Assembly (NCBI GenBank): GCA_017471365.1
Contig: JAFUUC010000025.1
Location: 1-39,677 of the forward strand
Direction: 5' to 3'
Source: a bacterium
GTDB lineage: Bacteria; Cyanobacteriota; Vampirovibrionia; Gastranaerophilales; Gastranaerophilaceae
Length of the DNA: 39,677 nucleotides
The position numbers and the translations under genes are program-made. Each line of letters starts with the position of its first letter. The stretch's first letter is position 1. Under the pieces are notes generated by a model. It was not told the DNA's origin. It was given only the letters and a program-made list of their open reading frames with translations, and did no database searches. Positions 5,871-39,677 of this stretch are shown here, piece after piece.

Positions 5871-6629
5871 ATGAAAAGATTTGGTTTTACGCTTTCGGAA
5901 GTTATGATTACGATAAGTTTGTTGGGAGTAGTTGCGGCTTTGACTATAGCAAACGTAGGCTATTCTATACAACACAAAGCACGGGTTTCCCAGTTTCAAA
6001 CCGCATATTCAAACATCGAAACCGCCCTTGCAAATATTGAGAACGAAAAAGGCGGTCCATATGCATGTTATTATTGTGCAAATGCTGAAGATGTGGGAAA
6101 GTTCGGTTTAGATAGAAAAACAGCCGGCTCATACAACAGTGAAGTAGGATGTTCTTCTGTAAGAGACGATACCGCTTGTGAAAATTTGAAAAACGATTTA
6201 TTAAGACATTTGGGTGTAAGTCACCATTGTAATACTAATGCTGTTTCTGAAGGTTGCCTTCCTGCAAATTATCCCAAAACAGGAATTACAAATTGTTTTA
6301 ATGAAAATTATACCAAAGTAAAAGCTCATGTTCTTGACAACAGCATGGTTTTAATTGAAAGTCCAAGAACTCAGGATAAAGGAATCAGCGTATTTGCAAT
6401 TGATGTAAACGGAAGAAAAGGACCTAACAAGTGGGGACAAGATATCTTTACTTTTTCAATAAGAGTAAGTAAGGGGAATACTGTTGGGTCAAAGTATTAT
6501 GTCTCTAAAGTTGGTATATATCCTTCAAATTGGTGCCAGCCAGGTTATACTGATGGTGCTAAACTAAATGATAAAGTTTCAAAATCTTCAGTTCAAATGT
6601 TAGAAGAAATTATAAACTATGATAATTAG
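5871..6629 (+). CDS. Cysteine-rich type IV prepilin-like protein
   Basis: 252 residues. The class III (prepilin) leader is short and basic, MKRFG, followed by FTLSEVMITISLLGVVAALTI. The cleavage point is Gly5/Phe6, Glu5 of the mature protein is present, and the hydrophobic helix extends to about residue 28. Such proteins are processed by PilD-like peptidase and join type IV pili or type II secretion pseudopili at the inner membrane. The globular part holds eight cysteines (for instance YACYYC, SEGCLP, NWCQP), unusual for a pilin and suggesting several disulfides after export. Unlike the other prepilin genes here it lacks the GC-rich variable C-terminus. It is preceded by a leaderless-type promoter and ends 11 bases before the convergent endonuclease-like gene. 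Whether it is a structural or minor pilin is unknown. Confidence 0.85.
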   Translation: MKRFGFTLSEVMITISLLGVVAALTIANVGYSIQHKARVSQFQTAYSNIETALANIENEKGGPYACYYCANAEDVGKFGLDRKTAGSYNSEVGCSSVRDDTACENLKNDLLRHLGVSHHCNTNAVSEGCLPANYPKTGITNCFNENYTKVKAHVLDNSMVLIESPRTQDKGISVFAIDVNGRKGPNKWGQDIFTFSIRVSKGNTVGSKYYVSKVGIYPSNWCQPGYTDGAKLNDKVSKSSVQMLEEIINYDN

Positions 6630-9023: not shown

Positions 9024-9052
9024 TTGACTTTTTTGCAGGTACGCATTATAAT
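9024..9052 (+). promoter_or_regulatory. Near-consensus sigma70 promoter into the 9110 region
   Basis: TTGACT (9024-9029), 17 bases, TATAAT (9047-9052). The -10 box is the first six bases of the 46-bp palindrome, so a protein bound to the palindrome would block it. An SD (AAAGGAG, 9094-9100) and ATG (9110) follow. Confidence 0.65.
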
Positions 9053-9092
9053 CCTTATTATACTGAATATATTCAGTATAATAAGGATTATA
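9047..9092. promoter_or_regulatory. 46-bp perfect palindrome, probable operator for the XRE regulator
   Basis: The centre is between 9069 and 9070 (CTGAATA / TATTCAG). Every base pairs symmetrically out to 9047 and 9092, and the first mismatch is 9046/9093. Its ends are TATAAT on the plus strand and TATAAT on the minus strand (9092-9087), so it spans facing -10 boxes between the XRE gene and the 9110 transcript. Such a length exceeds a single repressor half-site pair. It may hold two nested operators (TTATACTGAATATATTCAG core and flanks) or form a cruciform. Confidence 0.6.
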
Positions 9093-25307: not shown

Positions 25308-25453
25308 TCAAAAAGTTCCTCCCGTAGCCTATTATAGAGCATTTTCACTGTGAAATTCAATAAGATTTTGTAAAGTTTTTATAAGTCATATACAGATTTA
25401 TTTAATTTTTCATTCAAACCTGCCGATTAAAAATCATGTGTAGAGGATATAAA

Positions 25454-25999
25454 ATGAGAAAAATTTTAACTTTATTTTGTTTAATTATTTTGTACATTGG
25501 TAGTTTTTCGCTTTATGCAAATGCTGCTATTGGCAAATGGGCAAAACCCCAATACATAAAAACGTATATTCAACCAAATCATCCGCGTACAGTTATGATG
25601 AAACACGCTTTTGCTGAATGGTCAAGGCTTACTAAAGATAAAATAATTTTCAGATACGTAAATTCTACTCAAGATTCACAGCTGGATGTATTTTTTGTAG
25701 ATAAAATTTCTAAGGAAAAGAGTAACTCAGACAGATCAATAGGTTTAACAGAAACCAAAACTTCATCTACAGGTTTTATCAAACACGCAACAATATGGAT
25801 TGCGACTAATGCACAAAACGGCAAAAAATTGAGTGATGACGAAGTTTATACAACAATGCTTCACGAAATCGGTCACTCGATTGGACTAGAACACTCAAAT
25901 AATCCGAAAAGTGCAATGTATTCGGGCGTAAATGTTATTCAAGAAATTGATAAATCCGACCTTGCTACACTGTATAAAATATACGGCTGGAGAAAATAA
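25454..25999 (+). CDS. Secreted matrixin-like zinc metalloprotease
   Basis: 181 residues from ATG 25454, with SD AGAGG at 25442-25446. An earlier ATG at 25436 would put a non-standard MCRGYK before the signal. A Sec signal peptide (MRKILTLFCLIILYIGSF, cut near ANA-A) is followed by a compact catalytic domain with zinc motif HEIGHSIGLEH at residues 137-147 and Met-turn KSAMYSG. There is no pro-domain with a cysteine switch and no C-terminal domain, so it is a minimal metzincin. Substrates are unknown; extracellular or envelope proteolysis is the family role. It has a paralogue at 26678 on the opposite strand, with the toxin-antitoxin pair in between. Confidence 0.85.
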   Translation: MRKILTLFCLIILYIGSFSLYANAAIGKWAKPQYIKTYIQPNHPRTVMMKHAFAEWSRLTKDKIIFRYVNSTQDSQLDVFFVDKISKEKSNSDRSIGLTETKTSSTGFIKHATIWIATNAQNGKKLSDDEVYTTMLHEIGHSIGLEHSNNPKSAMYSGVNVIQEIDKSDLATLYKIYGWRK

Positions 26000-26677: not shown

Positions 26678-27241
26678 TTATTTATTAACGTTCTTTTGGC
26701 TCCATGACCAACCATTAATTTTAAACAGTTTTTCAACATCAATACTTAAAATATCTTGTGTTTCATCTACAGGAAAATGCATAATGCTTCTATATTTTCG
26801 TTCATTATGATTTAGACCTAATGCGTGACCGATTTCGTGAAGCATTGTTGTATAAACCAGATCATTAGAATAATTTTTGTTGTTGGCAACTATCTTTATA
26901 TTTGCCTTAGTAATGTAATTTCCCTCAATAGATAAATTACAAAGTCCTACAGATCCGTCACTTCCACTCAGATTATTAACAAATTCTACCGTAATTTGTG
27001 CCGGTTCTTTTTCTACAAACCTAAATTTTAAATTTCCATAACTTGACCTTTCCCATTTTTGGAAAGCGTGCTGCACCATTGCAGTTTTTGCTTCTTTTTG
27101 CGGTACATAAACAGTTATACTTCCAGATTGCCAATGAGGTGCTGTTGAAACAGTCGTTTGAGCCGCTTGTACAAATACATTTGGCAGCAATAACCCCAAA
27201 CCTAATAACAAAAATAGACTAATAAAAATCTTCTTTACCAT
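26678..27241 (-). CDS. Secreted matrixin-like zinc metalloprotease, second copy
   Basis: 187 residues. Signal peptide MVKKIFISLFLLLGLGLLLP...VQAA, then a single metzincin domain with HEIGHALGLNH at residues 135-145 and Met-turn YRSIMHFP. It is a paralogue of the gene at 25454, with the same length, domain order and W-K/R-x-x-G-C-terminal pattern (KINGWSW versus KIYGWRK), but well diverged in sequence. The SD AAGGAATTG lies before the ATG. Substrate unknown; both enzymes would act outside the cytoplasm. Confidence 0.85.
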   Translation of the reverse strand: MVKKIFISLFLLLGLGLLLPNVFVQAAQTTVSTAPHWQSGSITVYVPQKEAKTAMVQHAFQKWERSSYGNLKFRFVEKEPAQITVEFVNNLSGSDGSVGLCNLSIEGNYITKANIKIVANNKNYSNDLVYTTMLHEIGHALGLNHNERKYRSIMHFPVDETQDILSIDVEKLFKINGWSWSQKNVNK

Positions 27242-39192: not shown

Positions 39193-39677
39193 CTAGCCTC
39201 CTACGCAAACAACGCGGAAACCGTTGCCATTGCGGCGGTTGGTGTCGCTCCAAACCGTAGTCGAACTGCGGAAGACGCGGCCCCACGCACTGCTCGAGTC
39301 GTCCTCGAGGTCACCCCAAAGGTAGAACCACGAAGCGGAATCTTCTATGCCCAGTTTGGCTGTTACGCTCTTATCCCACTCGTTTGCAGTTGGGTCTGTA
39401 GCGTTGTATTCTTCAGACTCGCTGATTGAATTGTCGTTGTATATTGCCTTAGCTATATTTGCAAGTTCACTCGCTTTTGGTAATCTGCCACCTTGATTTT
39501 TACACTCAACCATAGCTCCTACCCAGTAGTCATCGTTGTTATTTAAGTAGCAGCTTTTAATTGCTTCGTAGCCTTCTTTACCTATGTAATCACGACAACT
39601 CACCGGCGTTGGAACTTTAGCCTGGCTAATTATTTTAACTCCGCCTATCTCTATATAAGAATCTTCAATTTTTGCTC
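39193..39677 (-). CDS. Prepilin-family surface protein with variable C-terminus (5' end outside window)
   Basis: The frame stays open to the window edge (AKIEDSYIEIGGVKIISQAK before the GTG at 39603), so that GTG is internal and the gene continues beyond 39677. The visible 160 residues are closely related to residues ~147-306 of the gene at 1-921, including CRDYIGKEGYEAIKSCYLNN, GGRLPKASELANIAKAIYN and WFYLWGDLE. The ending is SAWGRVFRSSTTVW...NGFRVVCVGG, whose NGFRVVC closing is characteristic of the C-type-lectin fold used by diversified proteins. Composition changes from AT-rich to GC-rich within the last ~45 codons. Proposed role as for the 1-921 gene. Confidence 0.8.
   Translation of the reverse strand, partial: AKIEDSYIEIGGVKIISQAKVPTPVSCRDYIGKEGYEAIKSCYLNNNDDYWVGAMVECKNQGGRLPKASELANIAKAIYNDNSISESEEYNATDPTANEWDKSVTAKLGIEDSASWFYLWGDLEDDSSSAWGRVFRSSTTVWSDTNRRNGNGFRVVCVGG
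39201..39336 (-). other. Putative DGR variable region (VR3)
   Basis: A 136-bp segment, three bases longer than VR1, with the same 5' start (GCTTCGTGG) and the same 18-base 3' end. Variable codons include GAC, AGC, AGT, GGC, GTC, CGC, GAC, ACC, AAC and GGC where VR1 has TAC, GGC, ACT, ACC, TAC, AAC, TAC, GGC, GAC and GAC. All listed pairs end in the same third base. Confidence 0.6.
39201..39677 (-). repeat. Right arm of the ~475-bp inverted repeat (partner 437-910)
   Basis: Reverse complement match to 437-910, described at that entry. This copy runs off the window edge. Confidence 0.8.

Follow-up and report, generated by a model that had tools for sequence, protein, structure and literature searches.

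Adenine-specific variable repeats in dispersed prepilin-like genes of a Gastranaerophilales genome: probable diversity-generating retroelement targets with templates on other contigs

Introduction

The diversity-generating retroelement (DGR) of Bordetella phage BPP-1 acts on a single target. Systems with several targets have also been described, and are cited here from excerpts of the respective papers. The TvpA DGR of Treponema denticola serves between 2 and 7 targets in each isolate from a single template, with a reverse transcriptase (RT) at a core locus (PMC4891356), and Thiohalocapsa PB-PSB1 carries nine loci with 15 targets, several complete DGRs and putative conflict-system sensors (PMC10907252). 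Yan et al. (2019) refer to 'hundreds of VR copies', the example in the excerpt being 21 merged variable repeats (VRs) in one ORF (PMC6642488). By its own statement, an excerpted survey of DGRs on metagenome contigs would miss remote targets (PMC8144416); systems of this kind may therefore be widespread among fragmented assemblies. Our literature search, with most subscription papers outside its range, found none linking a diversity-generating retroelement with Gastranaerophilales, Melainabacteria or Vampirovibrionia.

Here we analysed a window, meaning the whole stretch of DNA under study, that constitutes the entire 39,677-bp contig C23 of a Gastranaerophilales assembly, G000 (1.81 Mb, 109 contigs, 96.9% complete). 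As in T. denticola TvpA, where the targets are of the C-type-lectin kind, one template is matched by several dispersed targets, but G000 has 56 good matches, two found templates and an RT that was not located (PMC4891356, excerpt). With Thiohalocapsa PB-PSB1 it shares many targets per genome, some best explained in trans, and degenerate loci; it differs in its prepilin-like targets and in templates without an adjoining RT (PMC10907252, excerpt). The avd gene, the template repeat (TR), adenine-specific change and the 3' border are common to BPP-1, whereas the phage has its RT-Avd-recruiting structured RNA 3' of the TR (PMC12875486, excerpt) and G000 has its conserved structured element 5' of it. 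Pilus proteins of a gut bacterium are likewise diversified by the Bacteroides DGRs that target type V tip pilins (Macadangdang et al., as cited in PMC12632263), but type V pili are built of lipoprotein pilins, another family, and the G000 targets have type IV prepilin-like N-termini. The DGR mechanism is of a known kind; the scale, the plural templates without an adjoining RT and the leader described below go beyond the published cases that we found. The 56 matches in a 1.8-Mb genome compare with 7 and 15 targets in the two excerpted multi-target cases, a scale that implies the use of DGRs as a genome-wide receptor repertoire.

Variable repeats of the window

Three target genes with variable repeats were located in the window (Table 1). 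VR1 and VR3 have both borders in common (TCCGCTTCGTGG ... GTTTGCGTAG), are on opposite strands with about 38 kb between them and differ by one codon in length (139 nt in VR3 vs 136 nt in VR1), as the initial annotation had described; its start for VR3 was also correct, and the end, which it had placed at 39336, is at 39339. The two genes are 88% identical in DNA, and the C-terminal domain of the VR3 gene shows 40–82% identity to 12 other family members. Both repeats fit the template TR-A, in agreement with the earlier proposal that one template had written them. VR1 differs from TR-A at 22/41 A sites and 0/95 non-A sites (hypergeometric P about 2e-14 for differences falling on template adenines), and VR3 at 21/41 A sites and 1/95 non-A sites (P about 2e-12), plus one 3-nt insertion (one codon). 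These values reject the possibility, raised in the initial annotation, that the copies are not A-site specific.

Table 1. Positions of repeats, target genes, templates and leaders in assembly G000
Feature	Contig	Position	Strand	Description
VR1 target gene	C23	1..921	+	306 aa frame, 5' end lost at contig start
VR1	C23	775..910	+	Variable repeat matching TR-A, from which it was probably written
VR2 target gene	C23	9522..10169	+	Prepilin N-terminus AFTLAEVLITLAIIGVVAALTLPTLI; 215 aa frame
VR2	C23	10011..10158	+	B-class variable repeat with a 3' block of a type that TR-B cannot have written
VR3 target gene, 3' part	C23	39193..39677	-	160 aa frame, 5' end lost at contig end
VR3	C23	39201..39339	-	Variable repeat, template TR-A on another contig
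Leader of TR-A	C36	283-349		Structured leader
TR-A	C36	498-645		Template; frame reads NLWGDLENDSNNAWNRNFNSSNTEWNNNNRNNNNIR
Leader of TR-B	C101	30492-30558		Structured leader

VR2 differs from the second template, TR-B, at 20/48 A sites and 6/100 non-A sites. The N-terminus of its gene is GspG-like with a score below the cut-off, and the gene is probably internally deleted, since its product compares with about 370–490 aa in members that retain the N-terminus. A few hundred bases upstream, at 9047-9092, lies a perfect 46-bp palindrome with 23-nt arms.

The genes bearing VR1 and VR3 are both cut by the ends of the contig. Positions 437-879 and 39235-39677 form inverted copies, 89% complementary across 443 nt, with an extra arm of 35 nt (86%). 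Across the assembly, 74 of 93 family copies have a contig end no more than 1 kb away; the placement of VR1 and VR3 at opposite ends is therefore largely explained by the assembly breaking inside a repeated family.

Target family across the assembly

Searched with the VR3 gene, the DNA of G000 yielded 40 scored matches, one of which was TR-A itself, and a protein search with the C-terminal domain of the gene found 99 places. The family count that the initial annotation had proposed was performed on 93 target-domain copies. At least 85% of non-A sites matched a template in 56 copies, 21 with TR-A and 35 with TR-B; the remaining 37, truncated and decayed members among them, fell below 85% to either template, and their class assignment may be chance. 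At E ≤ 1e-5, the C-terminal domain had 91 matches in G000 and 25 in the next of 46 genus genomes. The congeners G012, G025 and G024 had 25, 20 and 11 target-domain matches and 31 of the 46 genomes had none, so the expansion of targets across the genus is patchy.

Templates and their leader

The proposal that dispersed targets are served in trans from a template elsewhere is supported by TR-A on contig C36 and TR-B on contig C101. A gene that by eye reads as rpoB follows TR-A at a distance of about 450 nt; TR-A itself does not form the end of any target gene and has Asn codons where other copies vary. TR-B, also a separate near-repeat outside the target genes and not the end of one, is flanked by a B-class target on one side and, on the other, by a bAvd gene (PF22296, 48.3 bits against a cut-off of 40), which is followed by a gene reading as secA. 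In both templates, runs of AAC/AAT codons stand exactly at the variable positions of the targets (16 AAY codons in TR-A, 19 in TR-B); such codons can change to many residues and never to a stop.

The 3' ends of the 35 B-class copies, grouped by eye, read NNC-NNC-CCG-AGG as in TR-B in about 10 and TCC-GGT-NNC-AGG or near in about 20, VR2 included. No template with a 3' block of the latter type was found in assembly G000. A block that TR-B cannot write is carried by over half of the B class, which predicts a further template. The initial annotation had proposed one retroelement for the copies; this holds as far as VR1 and VR3 share TR-A, and it does not extend to VR2, which belongs to the TR-B class, with a further template predicted and no RT found.

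A structured leader of about 67 nt lies upstream of both templates and recurs in relatives (L222:5356-5422, L194:442-511, L190:6054-6119 and others). Among 17 distinct sequences, 87% of the pairings were standard pairs and 17/24 pairs had changed on both sides. Covariation amounted to 58 two-sided cells vs a shuffled mean of 22.8, with 0/500 shuffles as high and slid controls at 12 or fewer, in an alignment that was fitted to the model and hence leans towards the structure. The leader model matched 5 of the 46 genus genomes, G000 included and one weakly; across 42 chosen sources it matched at 20 sites. No Rfam family overlapped the leader (six matches at E ≤ 1, none reaching the gathering score), and the exact leader pattern had 0 matches in viral contigs. 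Beyond the order, the model matched once at E 0.001 and four times at 0.2–0.8 in 87 RT-bearing loci, and 4/5 of these matches lay about 260–500 nt before the RT. Weak matches on the 5' side of the RT occurred in the alphaproteobacterial or proteobacterial loci L212-L214. DGRs of this clade may generally carry the leader as a 5' element. A separate stretch of about 80 nt (CCTGAAACAGCCCTGCATACAGGCTCACACGTCC...) is near-identical upstream of both templates, at L031:55-140 and upstream of TR-B on C101; it lies outside the leader and looks like a dispersed repeat.

Reverse transcriptase in relatives

Searches of the G000 assembly with Pfam RVT_1 (E ≤ 0.001), the DGR RT of a congener (E ≤ 10) and an RT profile (E ≤ 1e-20) all failed to find an RT. 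Close DGR-type RTs were present in the congeners G005, G020, G024 and G025 with the motif IGNLTSQ, which we take to be a mark of DGR RTs. The RT profile of leader-bearing relatives matched PDB 8ub7 (Reverse transcriptase), presumably the Bordetella phage DGR RT, at 4e-47 vs 9e-14 for the best group II RT. RT relatives at 48–59% identity came from records titled Candidatus Gastranaerophilales, and those in viral contigs reached 46% identity at most. Among the former, L222 agrees in its coordinates with contig C19 of G082, a member of the family to which G000 belongs.

In RT-bearing relatives, the leader, template and RT usually follow in this order within about 700 nt (e.g. L222, L194, L053). 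The order in L190, a Fusobacterium sp. CAG:439 record, is RT, prepilin target, bAvd, leader and template, and in G020 the RT and then a prepilin target lie near one contig end, with the leader, template and bAvd at the end of another contig. Contig C101, which carries TR-B, ends within a repeated target gene, where the RT sits in G020 and L190, so an assembly gap is expected at this point. In the simplest reading, the RT would lie across the C101 break, on DNA missing from the assembly.

Alternatively, the RT may have been lost from the lineage, leaving the repertoire as a frozen relic of past mutagenic homing. The failure to find an RT in G000 agrees with such a loss, as do the T. denticola isolates with targets but without RT or TR (PMC4891356, excerpt) and the congener G012, which has numerous target-domain matches but in which no RT and no leader passed the search thresholds. 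We nevertheless consider the loss unlikely: 7/93 copies carry zero non-A change and 14/93 carry at most 2%, the 56 best copies contain no stop codons, the avd gene, leaders and templates are intact, and the position of the C101 break leads one to expect the gap.

Adenine specificity

In the 56 copies, pooled differences fell on 434/861 A sites (TR-A) and 812/1667 A sites (TR-B), and on 84/1995 and 209/3486 non-A sites, the latter rates being lowered by construction because the copies were chosen by non-A identity. Independent of that choice are the single-copy results for VR1 and VR3 and an unselected count of changes by starting base at 29 loci against TR-A, weak members included (A 635, C 199, G 164, T 98). 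Adenines in AAY codons differed in 57% and 59% of cases, and other adenines in 26% and 10%. Divergence between copies, taken from 27 of the 32/93 copies with at least 95% non-A identity, was 4.4% and 3.7% (two classes) at non-A sites of the repeat, 57% and 52% at its A sites, and 15.4% and 17.9% in the 210 nt just upstream. Overwriting of the block from a template would be expected to leave non-A sites less diverged than the upstream region, as observed.

An exchange of segments between prepilin paralogues by ordinary recombination or gene conversion, as in pilin antigenic variation and with no reverse transcription, could draw on the many near-identical paralogues inside which the contigs break. 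Exchange of this kind, however, does not restrict changes to the adenines of a single non-coding copy: with TR-A and TR-B as templates, 84% and 80% of the differences fell on A, against 44% and 42% when the best target copy was used as a pseudo-template. Together with the bAvd gene adjoining TR-B, and a leader that both templates have in common with RT-bearing DGRs, this makes gene conversion very improbable. Diversifying selection on ordinary point mutations at surface residues would suit variable residues clustered in one domain, but it is almost certainly wrong, as it explains neither the match to a non-coding template nor the lower divergence of non-A sites, also at third codon positions, relative to the gene upstream (3.7–4.1% against 15–18%).

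Proposed mechanism

We conclude with high confidence that VR3 is one of many targets of a DGR that uses TR-A and TR-B and whose RT is predicted to be present in the organism. Each template would be transcribed together with its structured 5' leader, and an RT of the relatives' type, with bAvd, would copy the template with random bases opposite A; the cDNA would then take the place of the 3' end in any target gene with the same 3' border as the template. On balance, we favour a DGR split into trans-acting modules, in which free-standing leader-template cassettes (two found, a third suggested by the 3' blocks of about 20 B-class copies) each serve their own subfamily, more than 50 dispersed prepilin adhesins are written via one shared RT-bAvd complex, and the 5' leader RNA acts as the handle for template recognition. 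If this modular organisation is correct, the bacterium would possess a repertoire of many hypermutable receptors. The conserved leader is a testable part of template recognition and a possible probe for templates without an RT.

Target proteins

The variable repeat stands at the 3' end of the target genes, and full-length members have a prepilin N-terminus. A complete member on contig C98 scored over the cut-off for PF07963 (24.4/21.2) and TIGR02532 (21.2/16.3), and a loose prepilin motif was found in 21/93 copies, the majority of the rest being truncated where their contigs end. Searches of Pfam, NCBIfam and PHROGs with the C-terminal domain gave no match over the cut-off. This variable domain is probably C-type-lectin-like, a fold weakly indicated by Pfam (Lcl_C, best E 0.025, 2/13 members; Lectin_C, 0.099, 1/13) and by a PDB comparison (intimin, 0.0098); a structure model of the VR3 domain built from four sequences was poor (mean pLDDT 37.6). 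Prepilin-like targets with a variable C-terminal domain suggest a large repertoire of surface or pilus-tip adhesins as the likely product.

The window also contains a separate prepilin-like gene (5871-6629; PF07963 over the cut-off) without the variable C-terminal domain. Two similar small genes in opposite orientation, at 25436-25999 and 26678-27241, carry a HEIGH metalloprotease-like motif (by eye) and are 75% complementary across 77 nt.
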